Assembly (NCBI GenBank): GCA_017516465.1
Contig: JAFXCR010000053.1
Span: forward strand, 1-39,579
Length of the DNA: 39,579 nucleotides
Direction of reading: 5' to 3'
Source of the DNA: Ruminococcus sp.
Lineage (GTDB): Bacteria; Bacillota; Clostridia; Oscillospirales; Ruminococcaceae
Shown here: one piece after another, positions 557 through 12,089 of the stretch
Layout of the letters: each line of letters begins with the position of its first letter
How positions within the stretch are numbered: the stretch's first letter is position 1
The notes under the pieces: generated by a model
The model's database searches: none
Seen by the model: the letters and a program-made list of their open reading frames with translations, nothing else
What the model was told of the DNA's origin: nothing
Program-made: the position numbers and the translations under genes

Positions 557-663
557 AAAAAAGGCTGACAGCTAATAGATACAAAAAATTATATGATATT
601 TATCGGTTCTATTGGTTAATAATCTGAAAAATATCCTTTTTCCGGAAAAATTTAAAAAAGCTC

Positions 664-692
664 TTGACAGATCGTTTTTTTTAATATATAAT
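664..692 (+). promoter_or_regulatory. Sigma-A promoter of rpmH operon
   Basis: TTGACA at 664-669 and TATAAT at 687-692 are separated by 17 bases, a perfect consensus promoter. A leader of about 100 bases runs to rpmH. No DnaA boxes or dnaA gene are visible between here and the window start. Confidence 0.85.
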
Positions 693-797
693 GTTTTAGT
701 GTAATGCGGACAATTGCCGCATAGCTTCAATAAACTGAATACGGTCCTTCATGGAACGTATTCTTAATATACAATGCGCAGAGAGGAGGACCTGAAT

Positions 798-932
798 ATG
801 AAAAGAACATATCAGCCTAAGAAGCTCCACAGAAAGAAGGAGCACGGCTTCATGAAGAGAATGGCTACAAAGAACGGCAGAAAGGTTTTAGCTCGTAGAA
901 GATCTAAGGGCAGAGCAAGATTAACTCACTGA
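798..932 (+). CDS. rpmH: 50S ribosomal protein L34
   Basis: This is a 44-residue, very basic protein starting [18 protein letters not shown] and ending in an [10 protein letters not shown]-type tail, the standard L34 sequence and length. L34 is a small structural protein of the large ribosomal subunit. The start has an AGAGAGGAGG ribosome site. It is the first gene of the origin-proximal operon and is followed by a terminator-like hairpin before rnpA, which probably makes the L34 message more abundant than that of downstream genes. Confidence 0.97.
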
Positions 933-939
933 CGACGCT

Positions 940-971
940 GACCACAAAATCTTAATTTTGTGGTCTTTTTT
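940..971 (+). terminator. Intrinsic terminator/attenuator after rpmH
   Basis: Arms GACCACAAAAT and ATTTTGTGGTC enclose the loop CTTA and are followed by TTTTTT. The hairpin sits between rpmH and rnpA, so partial read-through to rnpA is expected. Confidence 0.8.
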
Positions 972-1009
972 GTTACGTTGCAGGTATGACGCTCTTTATG
1001 GTGGAGTTT

Positions 1010-1372
1010 ATGCTTTATACTGAAATTTTGAACAACAACAGGGATTTTCTCGCTCTCTACAAAAAAGGAAAATACTTCGCTTCTAAATATTCCGTTATTT
1101 ATGTGAGAACAAACGGCAGACCCTACAACAGGCTCGGTATTACAGCCGGAAAAAAAGTAGGTAATGCCGTCCACAGAAACAGAGCGAAAAGGCTTATCCG
1201 CCTCGCTTACAGAGAGTCTGAAATCAATCTTCCCGTGGGTATTGATATCGTTATTGTTGCAAGAAGCTTTATCTGCACCGTAAAATCACAGGAATTCTGC
1301 GACTATATGAAAAATAAGGCAGTTCCTGAAATCAATGGAATATTCCGCAGACTCAACACAGGAAAAAGCTGA
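1010..1372 (+). CDS. rnpA: Ribonuclease P protein component
   Basis: This is the protein subunit of RNase P, which helps the RNA subunit cut the 5' leader from pre-tRNAs. The start chosen gives 120 residues beginning MLYTEILNNNRDF, matching the family's usual start; a GGTGGAG lies just upstream. Two earlier in-frame ATGs (986, 998) would add an unconserved extension. The family RNA-binding stretch is present: GKKVGNAVHRNRAKRLIRLAYRE, with its RNR signature. The next gene, yidD, begins 2 bases after the stop, so the two are probably translated together. Confidence 0.95.
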   Translation: MLYTEILNNNRDFLALYKKGKYFASKYSVIYVRTNGRPYNRLGITAGKKVGNAVHRNRAKRLIRLAYRESEINLPVGIDIVIVARSFICTVKSQEFCDYMKNKAVPEINGIFRRLNTGKS

Positions 1373-1374
1373 TT

Positions 1375-1680
1375 ATGAAATATATTGCTCTTGCACTTAT
1401 AAAGTTTTACAGAAAATGTATTTCTCCCCTTTTTCCTGCTAAATGCAAGTACTATCCGACGTGCAGCAGTTATGCTCTCACAGCTTTTAAGAAATTCGGA
1501 TTTTTCAGGGGATTTCTTCTCTCAGGCTGGAGGATATTAAGATGCAATCCCTGGTCGGCAGGCGGAATTGACCACGTTCCGGATAAGTTCTCACTCAGGA
1601 CGAAAAAAATGTACTTTGAAGGGCTTGAAAATCCGGACTGCGGCATAGTACCACAGGAAAATGACAACAATAATGACTAA
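1375..1680 (+). CDS. yidD: Membrane protein insertion efficiency factor YidD
   Basis: This 101-residue protein shows the YidD pattern: a short amphipathic N-terminus (IALALIKFYRKCISPLFP), then the cysteine cluster CKYYPTCSSYA, then GWRILRCNPWSAGGIDHVP. YidD is a peripheral inner-membrane protein that assists insertion of membrane proteins, apparently with YidC, which is the next gene. It lies between rnpA and yidC with 2 and 12 base gaps, the usual order. The acidic, asparagine-rich C-terminus is a little longer than in many homologues. Confidence 0.94.
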   Translation: MKYIALALIKFYRKCISPLFPAKCKYYPTCSSYALTAFKKFGFFRGFLLSGWRILRCNPWSAGGIDHVPDKFSLRTKKMYFEGLENPDCGIVPQENDNNND

Positions 1681-1692
1681 GAGGGATGAATT

Positions 1693-2799
1693 TTGAACGC
1701 ACTTTATGACATTATAGGTATTCCTTTCGGATACCTCATGCGGCTTATTTATATGCTTTGCAATAATTATGCCGTTGCTATTATTCTTTTTACGGTCGTA
1801 ACGAAAATTCTTTTGTTCCCCGTAAACTACAAGACTCAGAAAAATGCTGCAAGAATGCAGCTGCTTAACCCGAAAATGAAAAAGCTTAGAAAAAGCTTTG
1901 CAAATAATCCGCAGAGACTTCAGGAAGAACAGCAGAAGCTCTACATTGAGGAAGGCATTAACCCTATGGGAAGCTGTATGCCGGCATTTATACAGATGTT
2001 CCTGCTTTTCGGTGTGCTCGACGTTATCTATAAGCCGATCACTCATATCCTGAATTACGCAAAGGATATCAGAATTGATGCCTGCAAGATAGCCGGTGCA
2101 AAAATCAAGGATCTCAGATGCGAGCTTGAAATTATGACGCATCTTCAGAAGAATCCCGATGATTATATCAGCCTCGGAGATTTCAGTACAAAAGTTTCGG
2201 AATTTACTGATAAGTATACTATTTTCGGTGCAAATCTTGGTAAAACACCCTCTTTCAGTCCCGATGTATGGAACAGGGAATCTATAATTCTTTTCCTTAT
2301 TCCTATTCTCGCCGGAGTTGCACAGATTCTTTCATCATTTTACAGCCAGATACACCAGAAAAAAGTGAATCCTGATATGCAGGGCGGCGGATGTATGACA
2401 TTCATGATGTATTTCTTCCCGCTTCTCACAGTCTGGTTTGCATATTCAGTTCCTGCCGGTATCGGCTTCTACTGGATCTGGTCGGCACTCTTCTCATTTA
2501 TTATTACCTTTGCACTCAATCAGTATTTCACTCCTGAAAGAACTGAAAAGATCAACGAAAAGGAAAAGGAAAAAGCAAGAATTTATGCAGAAAAGCATCC
2601 TGAGAAAAAGACTTTCATGCAGAGAATGATGGAACAGCAGGAGCTTATGAATCAGCAGCAGAACAGTGCTAAAAAGAACAACGGTGATAAGATTTCACGC
2701 TCTGAGATGAACAAGTACAACAGGGATAAAATCAACGAAGCACGCAGACGTATGGCAGAAAAATACGGCGATATCTACGATGAAAACGATAAAGATTAA
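1693..2799 (+). CDS. yidC: Membrane protein insertase YidC/Oxa1 family
   Basis: This 368-residue protein is the YidC/Oxa1/Alb3 insertase, which places membrane proteins in the cytoplasmic membrane alone or with SecYEG. The start is a TTG with a GAGGGATG ribosome site. Hydrophobic segments lie near residues 8-45, 97-120, 196-218 and 235-280. A lysine (K38, in VVTKILLFPV) occupies the place where the hydrophilic groove usually has an arginine. A long charged C-terminal tail rich in K, E, Q and N follows, as is common in Gram-positive YidC for ribosome contact. About 70 residues between the first two and the later segments form an unusually long insertion. Confidence 0.93.
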   Translation: MNALYDIIGIPFGYLMRLIYMLCNNYAVAIILFTVVTKILLFPVNYKTQKNAARMQLLNPKMKKLRKSFANNPQRLQEEQQKLYIEEGINPMGSCMPAFIQMFLLFGVLDVIYKPITHILNYAKDIRIDACKIAGAKIKDLRCELEIMTHLQKNPDDYISLGDFSTKVSEFTDKYTIFGANLGKTPSFSPDVWNRESIILFLIPILAGVAQILSSFYSQIHQKKVNPDMQGGGCMTFMMYFFPLLTVWFAYSVPAGIGFYWIWSALFSFIITFALNQYFTPERTEKINEKEKEKARIYAEKHPEKKTFMQRMMEQQELMNQQQNSAKKNNGDKISRSEMNKYNRDKINEARRRMAEKYGDIYDENDKD

Positions 2800-2817
2800 T
2801 TTTTAAGGAGAATTAAT

Positions 2818-3930
2818 ATGACTGAAGTATTTAAGGCAGCCTCAGTCGATGAGGCTAAAGCTAAGGCCGCAAAAAAATTTGGTAAGGATATCAAGAATAT
2901 TAAGTTTGAAATTATTGAAGAAGGTTCAAAGGGCTTTTTGGGCTTTGGAAAAAAAGAAGCTGTTGTAAAGGCTACTTATGAGGCTCCGGCAGCTGCTACT
3001 GCTGCTCCGAAGACTCCCGCTAAGAAGATTGAACCGGTTGATGAAAAAAAGGCAGCTCCTGCACCTTCACCTGAAGTTAAAAAGGAAGCTCCTGTTGTAG
3101 TGGAAGCTCCCGTTGTGACAGAAACTCCGGCTGCTCCCGTTGAGGAAATCAAGGCTGAGACTTCCGCAGTTCCGGAAGAAAAAACAGATGAAGATCCAGC
3201 AATCATTGAATCTCCGGCTGCTGCTGATGAGGATGATTTCTTTTCACTCGACAGCTTTACTCTTATCGAGGATGAAGCTCTTGTAAATCCAAAGGTAAAG
3301 CTCGCAAGAGATTACATTGTAAGCGTTCTCGGAGCTATGGATACAGATGTAAGCTTCAAGATCTACCAGAATGAAACAGGTGCTGTTATTGATATCAACA
3401 GCAGCAACAATGGTACTGTTATCGGCAGAAGAGGAGAGACTCTTGACGCTCTCCAGTATCTCTGCTCTATCATCGCAAACAAGGGAGACAAGGATTATTA
3501 CAGAATCACAATTGATTGTCTCGGCTACCGCAGCAAGAGAAAGGATACTCTTGAACAGCTTGCCGCTAAGGTTGCAAAATCCGTTCTAAGAACAGGACGT
3601 TCACAGCCGCTTGAGCCGATGAATCCCTACGAAAGACGTGTGATCCACTCATCTATCTCAAAGATAGAAGGCGTATCTTCAAAGTCCGTGGGCGAGGAGC
3701 CTTACAGAAGAATCGTTGTTTCATCCAATAATCCGAGAAACAACAGAAGACGTGACAATCGTCGTGACGGAAACAGAAATGACCGCAGAAACGACAGAAG
3801 AAACAAAGACAGAGAAGTAACAATGGAGAGAAAGTCTGTAAATCTCGCTACAAGCTTTGAAAAGGACTACAAAAGACCAAAGCCTGAGGACAGCATCGAG
3901 GGCGGTCTTTACGGAAAGATTGAATTTTAA
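2818..3930 (+). CDS. jag: RNA-binding protein Jag/KhpB
   Basis: This 370-residue protein has the Jag_N domain (1-55, with GSKGFLGFGKK), a long Ala/Pro/Glu linker (56-135), a KH domain with the GxxG loop GRRG at 203-206, and an R3H domain with the R-x3-H core ERRVIH at 272-277. An Arg/Asn-rich basic tail (300-335) follows. In other Firmicutes KhpB binds RNA, pairs with KhpA and influences cell elongation and division. The linker and tail make it longer than many homologues. The ribosome site is TAAGGAG, 18 bases after yidC. Confidence 0.93.
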   Translation: MTEVFKAASVDEAKAKAAKKFGKDIKNIKFEIIEEGSKGFLGFGKKEAVVKATYEAPAAATAAPKTPAKKIEPVDEKKAAPAPSPEVKKEAPVVVEAPVVTETPAAPVEEIKAETSAVPEEKTDEDPAIIESPAAADEDDFFSLDSFTLIEDEALVNPKVKLARDYIVSVLGAMDTDVSFKIYQNETGAVIDINSSNNGTVIGRRGETLDALQYLCSIIANKGDKDYYRITIDCLGYRSKRKDTLEQLAAKVAKSVLRTGRSQPLEPMNPYERRVIHSSISKIEGVSSKSVGEEPYRRIVVSSNNPRNNRRRDNRRDGNRNDRRNDRRNKDREVTMERKSVNLATSFEKDYKRPKPEDSIEGGLYGKIEF

Positions 3931-3946
3931 TTTATATTAATTATAC

Positions 3947-3985
3947 GGCAGCACTGCACAGATTCTGTGCTATGCTGCCTTTTTA
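3947..3985 (+). terminator. Terminator after jag
   Basis: GGCAGCA..CTGCACAG pairs with CTGTGC..TGCTGCC around the loop ATT and is followed by TTTTT. It separates the yidC-jag block from mnmE; the mnmE ribosome site begins directly after the T-run. Confidence 0.75.
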
Positions 3986-3998
3986 GGAAGTGATTATT

Positions 3999-5360
3999 TT
4001 GTCAACTATCGCTGCAATTTCTACTCCCGATTCTGCGGGAGGAATCGCTGTTATCCGTATTTCCGGTGAGGACGCAGTTACCGTTGCTGAAAGAGTTTTC
4101 AAACCGTACAGCGGAAAAAAAGTCTCTGAAATGGAGGGATATACCTGTGCCTACGGTATTGCTCATGATTCCGGCGAGAGGATAGACGACTGTATTCTCA
4201 CAATTTTCCGTGCTCCTCACAGCTACACCGGCGAGAATACGGCGGAGCTTTCCTGTCATGGCGGAATCTTCGTTACAAGGAAAATTCTCAGGACTATTCT
4301 TAAAAACGGTGCTGAGCCTGCACAGGCAGGGGAATTCACAAAGCGTGCTTTTCTTAACGGCAAGCTTGATCTGACGCAGGCAGAAGCGGTTATGGAAATA
4401 ATATCTGCAAAGGGCGAAAGAGAACTGAAAATGGCAGAAAATCTTCGTGAAGGAGCAGCTTTTCAGCGTGCGAAAAAATGCTCTGATATCCTTGTTAGGA
4501 TCCTTGGAGATCTTGCTGCATGGGCTGATTATCCGGAGGAGGACATTCCAGCCGTTGAGCCGGAAAATCTCGTAAATGATCTCACAGAAGTAAGGAATCA
4601 GCTTTTATCGCTCATTGAAAATTACGACTGCGGAAGGATTCTTCGTGAGGGAATTTCAACTGCAATTGTTGGCAGACCAAATGTTGGAAAATCTACTCTT
4701 TTCAATTGTCTTAGTGGATGCGAGAGAAGTATCGTTACTGATATTGCCGGAACAACCCGTGACGTTATTGAGGAAACGGTCAGTCTTGGGGATATTGTTC
4801 TGAGGCTGTCTGATACGGCTGGTATCCACCAGACGGATGACGTTATTGAGGGAATGGGGATAGAAATTGCTGAAAAAACTGCACAGTCTGCAGAGCTCGT
4901 TATCGCAGTATTTGACGGCAGCTGTCCTTTGAACGAGGACGATTTTTCTCTTATTGAAAAGATAAAAGACATGAAATGTGTAGCCGTTATCAATAAAAGT
5001 GATGAAGAATCTTTGATTGAGGAAGCAGTACTAAAAAACACTTTTATACATTTAGTATATTTATCTGCCAAAGAAAATTCTGGAATTAAATGGCTTCGTG
5101 AAGAAATAGAGAACATATTTTCGATAAATGATTGTGCTGTAAATTCAGTATGTGCTGCTAATGAACGTCAGAAACGATGTATTGAATCGGCTCTTGCGTG
5201 CGTTGATAATTCTATTGAAGCAATAAATTCCGGAGAATTACTCGACGCTGTTAATATTATTATTGATGAAGCAGAACAGCATCTTCTTGAGCTGACCGGC
5301 GAAAGAATAACTAATGCTGTTGTAGATAATGTTTTTTCAAGATTCTGTGTCGGCAAATAA
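3999..5360 (+). CDS. mnmE: tRNA modification GTPase MnmE
   Basis: This 453-residue GTPase works with MnmG to install the cmnm5 group on U34 of certain tRNAs. The TTG start at 3999 lies 8 bases after AGGAAG and gives MSTIAAISTPDSAGGIAVIRISG, matching the family N-terminus. A GTG at 3990 overlaps the ribosome site and is less likely. The N-terminal folate-binding domain, a helical domain, and the inserted G domain (P-loop GRPNVGKS near 225-232, then DIAGTTRD and DTAG) are all visible. The protein ends in FCVGK, the conserved catalytic C-terminal motif. A parS site begins directly after the stop codon. Confidence 0.95.
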   Translation: MSTIAAISTPDSAGGIAVIRISGEDAVTVAERVFKPYSGKKVSEMEGYTCAYGIAHDSGERIDDCILTIFRAPHSYTGENTAELSCHGGIFVTRKILRTILKNGAEPAQAGEFTKRAFLNGKLDLTQAEAVMEIISAKGERELKMAENLREGAAFQRAKKCSDILVRILGDLAAWADYPEEDIPAVEPENLVNDLTEVRNQLLSLIENYDCGRILREGISTAIVGRPNVGKSTLFNCLSGCERSIVTDIAGTTRDVIEETVSLGDIVLRLSDTAGIHQTDDVIEGMGIEIAEKTAQSAELVIAVFDGSCPLNEDDFSLIEKIKDMKCVAVINKSDEESLIEEAVLKNTFIHLVYLSAKENSGIKWLREEIENIFSINDCAVNSVCAANERQKRCIESALACVDNSIEAINSGELLDAVNIIIDEAEQHLLELTGERITNAVVDNVFSRFCVGK

Positions 5361-5376
5361 TGTTTCACATGAAACA
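5361..5376. promoter_or_regulatory. parS site 1 (ParB-binding centromere)
   Basis: TGTTTCACATGAAACA is palindromic except for the central CA and differs by one base from the classic parS of Bacillus (CACGTG centre). It starts immediately after the mnmE stop codon. Four copies of this exact 16-mer, in either orientation, occur in 3.6 kb around noc and parAB. Confidence 0.9.
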
Positions 5377-5394
5377 ATGAAATGAGGGATATCT

Positions 5395-7284
5395 TTGAAT
5401 TACAAAATGGGAGATTTTGATGTTGTGATTATAGGTGCAGGTCATGCCGGAGTTGAAGCAGCACTTGCATCGGCACGTCTCGGATGCAGAACAGTAATGT
5501 TTACAATCTCACTTGATCAGATTGCCAATATGCCCTGTAATCCGTCGATTGGCGGTACTGCGAAAGGTCATCTTGTCCGCGAAATTGACGCTCTCGGTGG
5601 TGAAATGGGTAAAGCAGCGGATAAATGTTTCATCCAGAGTCGAATGTTGAACAAGGGAAAAGGTCCTGCTGTTCATAGTCTGAGAGTACAGGCTGATAGA
5701 ATGAAGTATCACGAATACATGAAAAATGTCTGCGAAAAACAGAAAAATCTGTTTATCAAACAGGCTGAAGTCGCAGAAATAATTGTAGAAAATGGGAAAA
5801 TCACCGGCGTCAGAACGTCTCTTGGAGCTGAATATTCAGTCAAAGCAGTGATTATCGCAACCGGAACTTATCTTAAGGGTAAGATACATATAGGTGAAGT
5901 TTCTATCGAAAGTGGTCCAGATTCATCACTTCCCAGTACTTATTTGTCAGAAAGTCTCATCAAAAATGGAATCGAATTAAGACGATTCAAGACAGGAACT
6001 CCATGTCGTGTAAACAAGAGAAGTATCAATTTCGATATTATGGAAAGACAAGACGGTGATGAAAATATAGTTCCATTCTCGTTTGAAACACCAGTTGAGG
6101 GACTTGAAAATATAGCAAGCTGTTATGTCACTTATACTAATAGTAATACACATGAAATTATACTTTCTAACCTTGACAGATCGCCTTTATACTCAGGTAA
6201 GATAGAGGGAGTGGGACCTCGATACTGTCCTTCTATTGAGGACAAAATTGTTAGATTTTCGGACAAGCCAAGACATCAATTGTTCGTAGAACCAATGGGA
6301 CTTTCAACAGAAGAGTACTATTTACAGGGAATGTCCTCATCACTGCCGGAGGATGTACAGCTTGCATTCCTCAGGACAATAGAGGGACTGGAGGATGTTG
6401 AGATTATGCGTCCGGCTTACGCAATTGAGTATGACTGTTGTGATCCTATTCAGCTTAAACAAACGCTTGAATTCAAGAAGATAAGCGGATTATACGGTGC
6501 AGGTCAGTTTAATGGAAGCTCAGGATACGAGGAGGCGGCAGCTCAGGGACTTGTCGCAGGAATCAACGCGGCTTTGAAAATCCGTGGAAAAGAGCCAATG
6601 ATTCTTGACAGAGCGAGTTCCTACACAGGAACGCTTATTGATGATCTTGTCACAAAGGGATGTTCAGATCCATATAGAATGATGACTTCAAGAAGTGAAT
6701 ATCGTTTGATTCTTCGTCAGGATAATGCAGATCAAAGGCTTACACCAATTGGTTATAAATTAGGATTAATTTCTGAGAAAAGATATCAGAAATTACTTAA
6801 AAAAATAGAACTTACAAAGCAGGAAATTAAACGTGTTTCAAGCCTGAATATAGCTCCTTCAGAGAAGCTTAATTCGTTTCTTATTGAAAATCATACAGCA
6901 CCCATTAACTCGGGAATCAAACTTGCAGATCTCATTCGCAGACCTCAGCTTGGTTACGATATTCTTTCACCTTTTGATCCGCTGAGACCTGAACTTTCAT
7001 CGGATGTCCGTGAACAAGTAGAGCTTCAGATAAAATATGAAGGTTATATTTCAAAACAGCTTGCACAGATTGAATCGATCAGAAAACTTGAATCGAATAA
7101 CCTTCCGATTGGAACCGATTATAATAATGTTTATGGACTAAGATTAGAGGCTGCTGAGAAGCTAAATAAGGTTCAGCCTGCGTCAATTGGACAGGCATCG
7201 AGAATTTCTGGTGTTTCTCCGGCGGATATTTCACTTCTTACAGTGTGGCTGGAGCATCGAAAGGGGAATGAAAATGTTACCTGA
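5395..7284 (+). CDS. mnmG: tRNA uridine-5-carboxymethylaminomethyl modification enzyme MnmG
   Basis: This 629-residue FAD enzyme is the partner of MnmE in tRNA wobble-uridine modification. The TTG start is chosen because GAGGG lies 6 bases upstream; an ATG four codons later is possible. Visible are the Rossmann motif [10 protein letters not shown] near the N-terminus, the family signatures [15 protein letters not shown] and [16 protein letters not shown], and the C-terminal MnmE-interacting domain. The last codons overlap the start of rsmG, so the two genes are translationally coupled. Confidence 0.96.
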
Positions 7285-7978
7285 TTATGTTTTTTGTCGC
7301 AATGAATTTTCTAAATATGATCTTGAACTGAACGAAATTGCTTATAATAAGCTGAATATTTACTGTGATTTCCTGATTGAATACAACAATTATATCAATC
7401 TCACTGCTATTACTGATCCAGTTGAAATACTTTATAAACATTTTATTGACAGTATACTCATGTGTAAATATGCTGACTTATCTGGAAAAGAATCTATGAT
7501 TGATGTTGGAACAGGTGCCGGATTCCCCTCAGTTCCACTAAAAATTTTTCTTTCGGAGCTTAAAATAACACTTCTTGATAGTCTGAATAAGCGTATTGAA
7601 TTCCTGAAGAAGCTTTGTGATAAGCTTGAAATTGACGCACATTTTATTCACGGTAGAGCTGAAGACATCGCAAAAATGCCTGAATACAGAGAAAAATTTG
7701 ATATTTCATGTGCCCGTGCGGTTGCAAATCTATCCACACTCAGCGAGCTTTGTATACCTTTTGTAAAAGTTGGTGGAAGATTTATTTCTATGAAGGGGCC
7801 GAGCGAAGATATATCTCTTGCTCAAAATGCGATAAACATTCTTGGTGGAATTGTTTCACATGAAACAAAATATAATCTCGAAAATGAGGAAAGACGTATC
7901 ATAGAAATAAAAAAAATATCGCAGACTGCGACAAAATATCCCCGAAACAGCAGTCAGATTAAGAAAAAATCACTCTGA
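7274..7978 (+). CDS. rsmG: 16S rRNA (guanine-527-N7)-methyltransferase RsmG
   Basis: This 234-residue SAM-dependent methyltransferase modifies 16S rRNA at G527. The start ATG at 7274 lies 7 bases after AAGGGG and overlaps the end of mnmG by 11 bases; ATG 7268 is too close to that site. The SAM-binding motif [15 protein letters not shown] and the family segment [15 protein letters not shown] are present. The codons for VSHET near the 3' end contain a full parS site, so this stretch is under double constraint. Confidence 0.95.
7852..7867. promoter_or_regulatory. parS site 2, inside rsmG
   Basis: TGTTTCACATGAAACA lies within the coding sequence of rsmG. It is identical to the sites at 5361 and 8938. 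Confidence 0.88.
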
Positions 7979-8001
7979 TTATACAATAAATTAACGATCT
8001 G

Positions 8002-8034
8002 ATCGACAGTTTGCAGTAAACTGTCGATTTTTTT
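8002..8034 (+). terminator. Terminator after rsmG
   Basis: The perfect arms ATCGACAGTTT and AAACTGTCGAT enclose the loop GCAGT, and a run of seven T follows. It ends the mnmE-mnmG-rsmG unit. Confidence 0.88.
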
Positions 8035-8109
8035 GTGTGGTAATTATTTCCGGAACGTGATAAAATTTATATACAGGGATTTCCCAAGTACAGTTTCGAG
8101 GTATTAAAA

Positions 8110-8931
8110 ATGGCAGGATTTTTAAATTTTACAAAAGAAAAATTGATAAACAAAGTAATTGAAATTGAAACAAAGTTAATTTTACCTAATCCAAATCAAC
8201 CAAGAAGATCTTTTCCCACGAATGAAATTACAGCTCTTGCAGATTCTATATCGCAGAACGGAATTCTTCAACCTCTTTCAGTACGAAGAATTAATGATAA
8301 ATACGAGCTTATAGCAGGGGAGAGAAGGCTTCGTGCAGCTAAATTATGCGGATTTAGAACTGTTCCGTGTATTGTACATGATATGAGTGACAGAAATTCT
8401 GCAATTTTAGCACTTGTCGAAAATATCCAGCGGCAGGATCTTTCTTTTTTTGAGGAAGCTATTGCAATAGAAAAACTAATTACATATTACGGCATGACTC
8501 AGGAGGATGCTGCTGCTAAGCTTGGAAAAGCTCAGAGTACAGTCGCAAATAAACTTCGTTTATTGAGAATTACACCGGAAGAACGTGATCTTATAATTAA
8601 GTTCAATCTTACAGAACGTCATGCACGGGCATTATTGAAGCTTGCGAGTCCGGAGGAACGACTGATTGTACTTGATAAAATAATTAAACATAATTTAAAC
8701 GTTGAGAAATCGGAGCATTTGATTGATGATTTTATTGGACTTCAAAAGGATAAAGCAAGTTATAAAAAGCGATCAAAGGTATTTCAGAATGTAAAAATGT
8801 TTGTAAATACTATTAATAAAGCGGTAGAAACAATGCAGGCAGCTGGAATTTCTGCCGATTCGAGGAAAATTCAGAATGAGGACTACATTGAGTACCGTGT
8901 TAGGATTCCGATTCAGAAAAAAACACAGTGA
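8110..8931 (+). CDS. noc: Nucleoid occlusion protein Noc (ParB family)
   Basis: This 273-residue ParB-type protein has the CTP-binding boxes (ELIAGERRLRAAK, and LVENIQRQDL), an HTH domain (GKAQSTVANKLRLL...TERHARALL) and a C-terminal domain ending EYRVRIPIQ that resembles Noc and not the adjacent ParB. The N-terminus, MAGFLNFTKEKLINKV, could form a short amphipathic membrane-targeting helix as in Noc. Noc blocks division-septum assembly over the nucleoid. The recognition positions that differ between ParB and Noc look Noc-like here (Q in AQS, K in ANK, R in ERHAR), suggesting it binds NBS sites and not parS; this is inference. Ribosome site: GAGGT. Confidence 0.88.
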   Translation: MAGFLNFTKEKLINKVIEIETKLILPNPNQPRRSFPTNEITALADSISQNGILQPLSVRRINDKYELIAGERRLRAAKLCGFRTVPCIVHDMSDRNSAILALVENIQRQDLSFFEEAIAIEKLITYYGMTQEDAAAKLGKAQSTVANKLRLLRITPEERDLIIKFNLTERHARALLKLASPEERLIVLDKIIKHNLNVEKSEHLIDDFIGLQKDKASYKKRSKVFQNVKMFVNTINKAVETMQAAGISADSRKIQNEDYIEYRVRIPIQKKTQ

Positions 8932-8937
8932 GACTAT

Positions 8938-8953
8938 TGTTTCACATGAAACA
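8938..8953. promoter_or_regulatory. parS site 3, left arm of a parS-parS hairpin
   Basis: TGTTTCACATGAAACA begins 6 bases after the noc stop codon. With the inverted copy at 8963 it forms a perfect 16-bp inverted repeat with a 9-base loop. Confidence 0.9.
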
Positions 8954-8962
8954 TTTTTTTAT

Positions 8963-8978
8963 TGTTTCATGTGAAACA
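8963..8978. promoter_or_regulatory. parS site 4, right arm; also a likely noc terminator
   Basis: TGTTTCATGTGAAACA is the exact reverse complement of site 3. It is followed by a run of eight to nine T (8979-8986), so in RNA the two sites would fold into a 16-bp stem plus U-tract, which is the form of an intrinsic terminator for noc. Confidence 0.88.
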
Positions 8979-9004
8979 TTTTTTTTAAAATTTTCTGTTT
9001 CTTA

Positions 9005-9033
9005 TTTACAATTAAAATAAAACGTGATATAAT
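9005..9033 (+). promoter_or_regulatory. Promoter of parA-parB
   Basis: TTTACA at 9005-9010 and TATAAT at 9028-9033 are spaced by 17 bases. The promoter starts 26 bases after parS site 4, so ParB spreading from the site could silence it; that is inference. Confidence 0.75.
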
Positions 9034-9063
9034 AGTAGTATATCAAATGAAAGGAAAGATTTC

Positions 9064-9717
9064 ATGGGAAAAATTATCGCTGTGGCTAACCAGAAGGGCG
9101 GAGTCGGCAAGTCAACGACTGTTGTAAATATCGCTGCTTATCTGGGTTCCAGAGATTTCAGGGTTCTATGTATCGACTCTGATCCTCAGGGAAATACAAC
9201 CACCGGCTTCGGCATAAAGAAAAAGTCCGTTAAAGCATCGACATACGACGTAATAACGGGGAAAACTCGTATTCAGGATGCTGTTATACATACTGATTTC
9301 AAGAATGTTTCCATTGTTCCGGCAACTGAAAGTCTTGCAGGATGCGAAGTTGAACTTGTTGGCTACGAAAACAGAATGAATCGCATGAAAATGCAGCTTC
9401 TTACCTGCAAGCTTGATTATGACTACATCCTCATTGACTGTCCTCCGGCACTCGGACTTATTACAATCAATAATCTCGTTGCGTGTGATTCGATTCTTGT
9501 CCCTATGCTTGCGGAATTCTACGCCCTTGAGGGACTTTCACAGCTTGTAAATACTATTAAAATAGTAAAAAATAATTACAATCCTTCGCTTGATATTGAG
9601 GGAATACTCTTTACTATGTTCGACGGACGTCTTAACGTTGCAAATGATGTTGTTTCTGAAGTTGAAAAATATTTCCCAAATAAAGTATTCAAGACGAAGA
9701 TTCCGAGAAATGTCTGA
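9064..9717 (+). CDS. parA: Chromosome-partitioning ATPase ParA/Soj, with premature in-frame stop
   Basis: This is the Soj-type ATPase that acts with ParB and parS in chromosome segregation and initiation control. The deviant Walker A KGGVGKST (11-18), the DSDPQGN loop and the IDCPPALG Walker B are intact. The frame stops after 217 residues at PRNV, where a TGA occupies the codon of the conserved arginine of the family motif PRNVRxSEAPSHG. The same frame continues open for 52 more codons with the normal Soj C-terminus. A single base change (CGA or AGA to TGA) is enough to explain it. Either the protein is truncated, the TGA is read through, or the base is a sequencing error. Confidence 0.9.
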   Translation: MGKIIAVANQKGGVGKSTTVVNIAAYLGSRDFRVLCIDSDPQGNTTTGFGIKKKSVKASTYDVITGKTRIQDAVIHTDFKNVSIVPATESLAGCEVELVGYENRMNRMKMQLLTCKLDYDYILIDCPPALGLITINNLVACDSILVPMLAEFYALEGLSQLVNTIKIVKNNYNPSLDIEGILFTMFDGRLNVANDVVSEVEKYFPNKVFKTKIPRNV

Positions 9718-9876
9718 ATTTCGGAAGCTCCCAGTCACGGAAAGCCTGTAATGTATTACGACAAGAATTCCAAGGGTGCTGAGTACTACGAGCTTCTCTG
9801 CCATGAGATTCTTGGCGAGGCACTGGAGCTTCCGCAGAAAAAAAGACGTGGAATTTTTAATTTTAAAAAGACCTGA
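9715..9876 (+). other. In-frame C-terminal remainder of parA after TGA
   Basis: After the TGA at 9715-9717 the parA frame reads ISEAPSHGKPVMYYD and continues through KNSKGAEYYELLCHEIL to a second TGA at 9874. There is no frameshift and no other stop. This is the expected last fifth of Soj, so full-length parA would be 9064-9876 (270 residues). A downstream ATG lies at 9751 but has no good ribosome site. Confidence 0.85.
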
Positions 9877-9890
9877 GAAAGGAGCAGTAT

Positions 9891-10742
9891 ATGGCTATTG
9901 GTGGTTTAGGACATGGTCTCGATTCGCTGTTTGAGGACAATACAAACGATATTCAGGTAAAAAGAACGCTCCGTATTTCCGAAATTGAACCGAACCGCAG
10001 TCAACCGAGAAAGAATTTCAGTGACGAGGCAATTTCTGCCCTCGCCGATTCTATTCAGGAGCACGGTATGCTTCAGCCGATTCTCGTAAGACCTCTCAGT
10101 ACCGGTGGTTATCAGATAGTTGCAGGAGAAAGAAGGTGGCGTGCCGCAAGAATGCTTGGCCTTGACGAGGTTCCGGTGAATATCCGTGAGCTTTCCGACA
10201 TGGAAACAATGCAGATTGCAATTATCGAAAATCTCCAGCGTGAAAATCTTAATCCTGTTGAAGAAGCGGCAGGATACAATGAGCTTATCGAAAAATACGG
10301 CATGACTCAGGATAAGGTCGCAAAAATGGTCGGAAGATCACGTTCTGCTGTTGCTAATGCAGTCAGACTTCTTGCACTTCCGGAGCGTGTGCTTAAAATG
10401 CTTGAAAACGGCGATATATCGGCAGGACACGGACGTGCACTTCTTGGATTTTCCGATGACGAGGAGCTTCTCATTGCTATGGCGGTGAAATCCTCTGATG
10501 GCGGACTTACTGTCCGTCAGGTGGAAAAGGCAGCTCAGAAATATGCTGATTCCGCAGACGAGCTTCCGGTAAAATCAGATACGAAGATTGACAATTACTT
10601 CAAGGAAATGGAACTCTCCCTTAACGAACGTCTTGGCAGAAAGGTCAGGGTAGATTACGGAAAGAATAAGGGTGCACTTATCCTTGAATTCTACGACAAG
10701 GAAGATCTTGCTGCAATTGCAGAAAAGCTTACAGAAGATTAA
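9891..10742 (+). CDS. parB: Chromosome-partitioning protein ParB/Spo0J
   Basis: This 283-residue protein binds parS, loads CTP through the box IVAGERRWRAAR, and spreads as a sliding clamp. The second box (AIIENLQRENLNPVEEA), the HTH (GRSRSAVANAVRLL with SAGHGRALLG) and a C-terminal dimerisation domain are intact. The recognition residues (R in RSRS, G in GHGR) are ParB-like, in contrast to the neighbouring Noc. AGAAAGGAG precedes the ATG. It starts 14 bases after the second stop of parA, so an intact operon was clearly selected. Confidence 0.95.
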   Translation: MAIGGLGHGLDSLFEDNTNDIQVKRTLRISEIEPNRSQPRKNFSDEAISALADSIQEHGMLQPILVRPLSTGGYQIVAGERRWRAARMLGLDEVPVNIRELSDMETMQIAIIENLQRENLNPVEEAAGYNELIEKYGMTQDKVAKMVGRSRSAVANAVRLLALPERVLKMLENGDISAGHGRALLGFSDDEELLIAMAVKSSDGGLTVRQVEKAAQKYADSADELPVKSDTKIDNYFKEMELSLNERLGRKVRVDYGKNKGALILEFYDKEDLAAIAEKLTED

Positions 10743-10763
10743 TATATTTAAGGAGTTAGAAAA

Positions 10764-12089
10764 ATGCTTGACATTAAATTTTTAAGAACAAATCCCGATA
10801 TCGTAAAGGAAAACATCAAAAAGAAGTTTCAGGATGAAAAGCTTGAACTTGTAGACAAGGTTATTGAATTTGACGAACAGTGCAGAAAAGCAAAGTCTGA
10901 GGGCGATGATCTCCGTAACCAGAAGAATCTGAAAAGCAAGGAGTTCGGAAAGTACAAGGCTATTATCAATAAGTCCGACGACGAGGCTGCTAAGGCTGAG
11001 GCTATGGCAAACGTTGACAAGCTTACTGCTGAAATCGAGGAAATCGACAAGAGACGTGCAGAGCTTGAGGAAATTGAATCAAAGCTTAACGAGGAAATCC
11101 GCAATATGATGCTTGTTATCCCGAATATCATCGACGACAGTGTTCCGATTGGTAAGGACGACAGCGAAAACGTTGAGGTTGAGAAGTTCGGCGAGCCTTT
11201 TGTTCCGGATTTTGAGGTTCCCTACCACGTTGATATCATGGAAAAGGTCAACGGAATTGATCTCGACAGTGCAAGAAAAACAAGCGGAAACGGCTTCTAC
11301 TACCTCTGTGGCGATATCGCTCAGCTTCAGAGTTGTATTCTTTCATATGCAAGAGATTTTATGATTGACAAGGGCTTCACATACTATATTCCGCCGTTTA
11401 TGATCCGCAGCGATGTTGTTACAGGCGTAATGAGCTTCGCTGAAATGGAGGGAATGATGTACAAGATCGAGGGCGAGGATCTTTACCTCATCGGTACTTC
11501 TGAGCACTCAATGATTGGTAAGTTCATTGATACTATCATTCCTCAGAACGAGCTTCCCAAGACACTCACAAGCTATTCTCCGTGCTTCCGTAAGGAGGTA
11601 GGAGCTCACGGCATCGAGGAGAGGGGAGTATACCGTATCCACCAGTTTGAAAAGCAGGAAATGATCGTTGTCTGCGAGCCTGAGGAGAGCATGGACTGGT
11701 TCCACAAGCTTTACAGCTATACTGTTGAATTCTTCCGTACACTTGATATTCCTGTTCGTACACTTGAATGTTGTTCAGGAGATCTTGCTGACCTTAAGGT
11801 TAAATCTATTGACGTTGAAGCATGGTCACCCAGACAGAAGAAGTATTTCGAGGTTGGAAGCTGTTCAAATCTCGGTGACGCACAGGCACGCCGTCTGAAT
11901 ATCAAGTATAAAACTCCCGATAAGCAGAAGTATTTTGCACATACGCTCAATAATACTGTTGTTGCTCCTCCGAGAATGCTTATTGCTTTCCTTGAAAACA
12001 ACATCAACGAGGACGGTTCTATCAGAATCCCCAAGGCACTTCAGCCCTATATGCGTAAGGAAATCATTGCTGTTCCTGAGAAAAAGTAA
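10764..12089 (+). CDS. serS: Seryl-tRNA synthetase
   Basis: This 441-residue class II synthetase charges tRNA-Ser. It has an N-terminal coiled-coil arm (about 30-110) that grips the long variable arm of tRNA-Ser, motif 2 (CFRKEVGAHG...GVYRIHQFEKQE) and motif 3-like SCSNLGDAQARRLNIKYK. The serine-binding TxE loop reads GTSEHS, where many bacterial enzymes have TAEVP, so this is a divergent branch of SerRS. It follows parB by 21 bases with AAGGAG and is probably co-transcribed with it; there is no room for a T-box. Confidence 0.93.
   Translation: MLDIKFLRTNPDIVKENIKKKFQDEKLELVDKVIEFDEQCRKAKSEGDDLRNQKNLKSKEFGKYKAIINKSDDEAAKAEAMANVDKLTAEIEEIDKRRAELEEIESKLNEEIRNMMLVIPNIIDDSVPIGKDDSENVEVEKFGEPFVPDFEVPYHVDIMEKVNGIDLDSARKTSGNGFYYLCGDIAQLQSCILSYARDFMIDKGFTYYIPPFMIRSDVVTGVMSFAEMEGMMYKIEGEDLYLIGTSEHSMIGKFIDTIIPQNELPKTLTSYSPCFRKEVGAHGIEERGVYRIHQFEKQEMIVVCEPEESMDWFHKLYSYTVEFFRTLDIPVRTLECCSGDLADLKVKSIDVEAWSPRQKKYFEVGSCSNLGDAQARRLNIKYKTPDKQKYFAHTLNNTVVAPPRMLIAFLENNINEDGSIRIPKALQPYMRKEIIAVPEKK

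Follow-up and report, generated by a model that had tools for sequence, protein, structure and literature searches.

An in-frame TGA private to one Ruminococcus draft genome, at a conserved arginine codon of parA, may be a recent nonsense allele

The window, by which we mean the whole 39,579-nucleotide stretch of Ruminococcus sp. DNA analysed here (contig JAFXCR010000053.1, assembly GCA_017516465.1), carries the gene row rnpA, mnmE, mnmG, rsmG, noc, parA, parB and serS. Several of the gene names used for the window, rnpA, mnmG and argH among them, are those that we take to be correct from our own reading of the translations. When parA (soj) is read in frame from its ATG start, codon 218 is TGA; a further 52 codons then stay open in the same frame, which closes at a second TGA (Table 1). 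Residue-by-residue alignment with the sister species G011 identifies this tail as the usual ParA C-terminus. In addition, a profile built from 16 relatives scored positions 9064–9870 as a single stretch (E 2e-170) with ‘1 TGA’ inside, and the two parts are therefore one gene and no chance open frame. The original prediction, that the 52 codons encode a normal Soj C-terminus, was thus borne out by the translation, the alignment and the profile. Membership of the ParA family is indicated by the Walker A motif KGGVGKST together with matches to PF13614 (E 9.3e-62) and to the 16-relative profile. The closest named locus found with the ParA profile, at 82% identity to the query's first row, comes from an uncultured Ruminococcus, and a search of a plasmid collection returned no match.

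The gene adjoins parB and lies close to parS-like sites. Both ParB and the Noc-like protein are encoded by open frames, and four parS-like 16-mers are present in the window, each one base away from the parS consensus; the expectation that intact ParB and Noc lie beside four parS sites was upheld in this form. All four window sites are TGTTTCACATGAAACA on one or other strand, one base off the CACGTG core. In the sister species G011, CACGTG was seen in two of the three parS-like sites found (L175, positions 10462, 14040 and 14065).

Table 1. Features of the parA region, in window coordinates.
Feature	Position	Strand	Basis
parS-like site	5361..5376		16-mer, one base off parS consensus
parS-like site	7852..7867		16-mer, one base off parS consensus
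noc-like ParB-family gene, intact	8110..8931	+	TIGR04285, 287.4 bits, under the cut-off of 315
parS-like site	8938..8953		16-mer, one base off parS consensus
parS-like site	8963..8978		16-mer, one base off parS consensus
parA (soj), codons 1–217	9064..9714	+	217-residue truncated protein under the standard code; Pfam AAA_31 (PF13614), E 9.3e-62; 95% identical to G011 over 1–217
In-frame TGA, codon 218, at the R218 position of B. subtilis Soj	9715..9717	+	Arg in 29 of 29 genus relatives
52 open codons, usual ParA C-terminus	9718..9873	+	Translation, alignment, profile, dN/dS
Natural stop of the parA frame (TGA)	9874..9876	+	Translation
parB (spo0J), intact	9891..10742	+	Open frame; 95% identical to G011, without stops

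Numbered against the sequence of B. subtilis Soj, codon 218 corresponds to R218. The position was Arg in all 29 genus relatives read, and likewise in all 27 genus loci L219–L245, whose genomes are partly shared with those of the 29 relatives. According to a figure legend in PMC3778016, two residues of Soj that are important for binding DNA nonspecifically, R189 and R218, are basic and conserved; the standard product of the window gene retains R189 and lacks both R218 and the C-terminal segment. Outside the genus the residue was less strictly kept. Among 29 ParAs of the family, a set chosen for having a listed stop close to the end, nine had no Arg at the site (Ala in five, Thr in two, Lys in two), and of 80 genome_contigs loci, 68 encode Arg there, 11 Lys and one Ala. 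The original prediction had placed the TGA on a conserved Soj arginine; the placement is correct and the conservation complete among the genus relatives read, but the arginine is a looser feature beyond them. Intact ParAs with another residue at the R218 site include L180–L183, L193 and L074 (a genome_contigs locus) with Ala, L176 and L179 with Thr, and L185 and L250 with Lys. As judged from these sequences, nonspecific DNA binding may depend on other residues in the family lineages that have Ala or Thr there.

A search of the genus gave 118 ParA matches in 115 of 125 genomes, and an internal stop was present only in the match from the window; none was found in the ParA matches of the 114 remaining genus genomes. 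The stop is therefore a singleton, private to the window's genome in this genus sample. Codon 218 was reached by 116 of the 118 matches, the exceptions being that of G033 and the second match of G476, which end earlier. The short match of G033 was rejected as a truncation because it runs into N in the record. A further ParA match was present in three genus genomes (G496, G476 and G470); the two in G496 are full length and may represent a second copy or mixed strains. In the family, 369 of 396 genomes had a ParA match. The check for internal stops at this level covered 29 ParAs besides that of the window, among the matches listed, and all 29 were rejected as comparable cases, since their stops lie at the natural C-terminus, 34–48 codons past the site.

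ParA otherwise evolves under strong purifying selection in this genus: of the 68 genomes with completeness of at least 90% and contamination of at most 5%, 67 had a ParA match. A true parA null would therefore be unusual in this genus, which counts against a real nonsense allele. The suggestion that a truncated Soj beside intact ParB and Noc would be odd accordingly holds for the genus, but loses force more widely, as ParB without ParA is known in other species: PMC7333895 describes S. pneumoniae and S. aureus as having ParB–parS and SMC with no ParA homolog.

Several lines of evidence indicate that UGA is a working stop in this genome. RF2 is present (511 bits against a cut-off of 370), and ORFs of at least 200 aa in a 400-kb sample of the genome, which were collected mechanically and include some shadows, end in TAA (142), TGA (107) or TAG (21), so that TGA closes 107 of 270; rnpA, mnmG and argH also end in TGA. 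No UCA anticodon was found at the 37 Rfam tRNA matches in the genome, all of which ARAGORN named as tRNA genes, though Ile and Asn tRNAs are absent from the 37, so that the tRNA set of the draft is incomplete and a suppressor tRNA could be missed. In the sole tRNA-Trp found, inspection by eye shows the usual anticodon stem of 5 bp; a 4-bp stem in this tRNA is known to cause reading of UGA (PMC13092985). No tRNA-Sec match exceeded the Rfam cut-off, the best scoring 45 bits against 47 and the top two lying on tRNA-Ser genes. Downstream structure was likewise absent in the 101 bases folded (9700–9800), which did no better than shuffled sequences (z -0.02).

On these data, a change of genetic code was rejected (RF2, the TGA-ending ORFs and the lack of UCA among the 37 tRNA genes), as were selenocysteine (tRNA-Sec matches all under the cut-off) and a read-through signal in RNA structure (not seen in the folded bases). 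None of the marks of genome-wide UGA reassignment, namely many in-frame UGA codons, a UCA tRNA and loss of RF2, was found, the search for in-frame stops having covered about 22% of the genome. The earlier claim that genes such as argH, rnpA and mnmG end in TGA and that the code is unchanged overall was confirmed by the translations, RF2, the ORF ends and the tRNAs. Whether the base is real or an error, the parA TGA shows no sign of, and lends no support to, a changed code or recoding.

Read-through at this one site would give a short DNA-binding-deficient ParA together with some full-length ParA. UGA is leaky in bacteria: PMC7918605 cites a catA86-TGA mutant with 6% read-through in otherwise wild-type B. 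subtilis, states that both E. coli and S. typhimurium insert Trp at TGA, and argues that in-frame stops may be read through widely; in the window gene, moreover, the tail has been kept conserved and the stop falls exactly on a DNA-binding residue. By contrast, a programmed read-through stop should recur at the corresponding codon in relatives, and here it occurs in one of 118 genus matches, that of the window itself, and is missing from the other 114 genomes. The ordinary tRNA-Trp, the sub-threshold tRNA-Sec matches, the unstructured downstream bases and the lack of UCA among the tRNAs (in a draft from which some expected tRNAs are absent) also speak against it. Functional read-through is thus unlikely, and as the explanation of this stop we regard it as very improbable. 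Of the three explanations originally offered, recent mutation and sequence error both fit the data, whereas the singleton distribution, the lack of a UCA tRNA, RF2 and the z-score give read-through no positive support. Even further from likely is the idea that a leaky UGA at the DNA-binding Arg produces two ParA forms, a nucleoid-nonbinding majority and a binding minority, which would adjust dosage or act as a switch in chromosome partition.

A split gene, in which the tail is re-initiated and complements the short ParA, merits equally little credence. An ATG lies 11 codons past the stop (9751–9753) with a GGAAAG stretch upstream, as re-initiation would call for, but both fall within the GKPVMYYD coding stretch common to stop-free relatives and need not serve initiation, and the re-initiated peptide would be without the PSHG stretch.

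The main rival to a nonsense allele is an error of consensus or assembly, or the base of a minority strain in a mixed draft, with the real parA intact. The source genome is a 1.99-Mb draft in 55 contigs, 95.25% complete and 2.17% contaminated, and one wrong base would account for everything observed, including the lack of clear relaxation in the parA tail and the absence of the stop from every other genus genome with a match. Against such an origin stands a scan for mid-gene stops in the window and twenty 20-kb stretches (439.6 kb, about 22% of the genome, with 298 coding-like segments of at least 100 codons), a scan that is blind to frameshifts and wrong sense bases. It returned 23 sites at which one stop splits two coding-like segments of the same frame: in 12 the next gene starts within 1–8 codons, 10 are antisense to longer ORFs (184–768 codons), and the remaining one is parA. 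No other true mid-gene stop was therefore present in the 439.6 kb, and the assembly is not visibly error-rich as far as stops are concerned. Similarly, none was found in ten further genes within the segment common to G011 and the window (571–11524), comprising rnpA, a 106-residue match after rnpA, yidC-like and jag-like genes, mnmE, mnmG, rsmG, noc, parB and the covered part of serS; stops in shadow frames were not counted as gene stops, and two counted in the rsmG match precede the open frame beginning at 7187. We consider an error a serious possibility, though a less probable one than a real substitution.

The divergence of the tail bears on the age of the stop. Between G011 and the window, the protein is 95% identical and the DNA 85% identical over 10.6 kb. 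The dN/dS ratio was 0.037 for codons 1–217, 0.058 for codons 219–260 and 0.028 for codons 219–251; these ratios reflect all divergence since the two lineages separated and are rough, as synonymous differences are high (0.43 per site for codons 1–217 and 0.39 for codons 219–260). Over the 52 tail codons, the differences at codon positions 1, 2 and 3 numbered 3, 3 and 13. These comparisons indicate that the parA tail has not gone through a long period of free decay. Because the tail diverged in a protein-like manner (0.058 versus 0.037), the stop is either very recent or false, and the low ratio is predicted equally by the two.

Taken together, we lean towards one nonsense substitution of very recent origin in the ordinary chromosomal parA of the sequenced strain or population. 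Consistent with this are the Arg in 29 of 29 relatives, the protein-like divergence of the tail, the use of UGA as a working stop and the lack of any other mid-gene stop in the scan, while the conservation of the tail counts against it in so far as a mere error would lead one to expect the same. What was observed directly is a stop that no other match in the genus sample shares, followed by a normal tail; the nonsense reading further supposes a real base, an inactive short ParA and a cell that copes with its loss. Translation would end at codon 218. The resulting ParA of 217 residues would keep the ATP-binding part but lack the conserved C-terminal segment along with the DNA-binding R218, and would probably be inactive; a low level of chance read-through at the UGA may still yield some full-length ParA. 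As parB has its own start, 14 bases past the natural end of parA, ParB should still be made, and ParB–parS and SMC loading would therefore continue without ParA. Soj is reported to be dispensable for segregation in B. subtilis. If the base is real, parA has here become a naturally arisen null or near-null next to intact ParB, Noc and parS-like sites, although the genus nearly always keeps the gene, and a strain with this allele could reveal the cost of ParA loss in the genus. If it is an error, the TGA would be just a flag on one draft genome.

The window locus resembles that of the ParA ATPase Soj of B. subtilis (best solved relative by sequence, 8ray_B) in its noc–parA–parB order, Walker A motif, R189 and parS-like sites, and has full-length genus relatives that carry the PRNVR-SEAPSHG stretch; it differs from Soj in the in-frame TGA at the R218 codon, which leaves a standard product of 217 residues. 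With UGA recoding systems, namely selenocysteine, UGA-Trp codes and the 4-bp-stem tRNA-Trp (PMC13092985), it has in common an in-frame UGA within a conserved gene, but the window genome has none of the decoding parts looked for. Also comparable are the short-lived in-frame stops of prokaryotic genes described by Belinky et al. 2021 (PMC7918605), where a single stop is likewise flanked by sequence under purifying selection; the large-scale part of that study counted stops common to at least two species, whereas the window parA stop occurs in a single genome. Finally, the ParA-less ParB–parS systems of S. pneumoniae and S. aureus (PMC7333895) are alike in that ParB and parS could work without ParA, and differ in that the window genome still carries a nearly intact parA.
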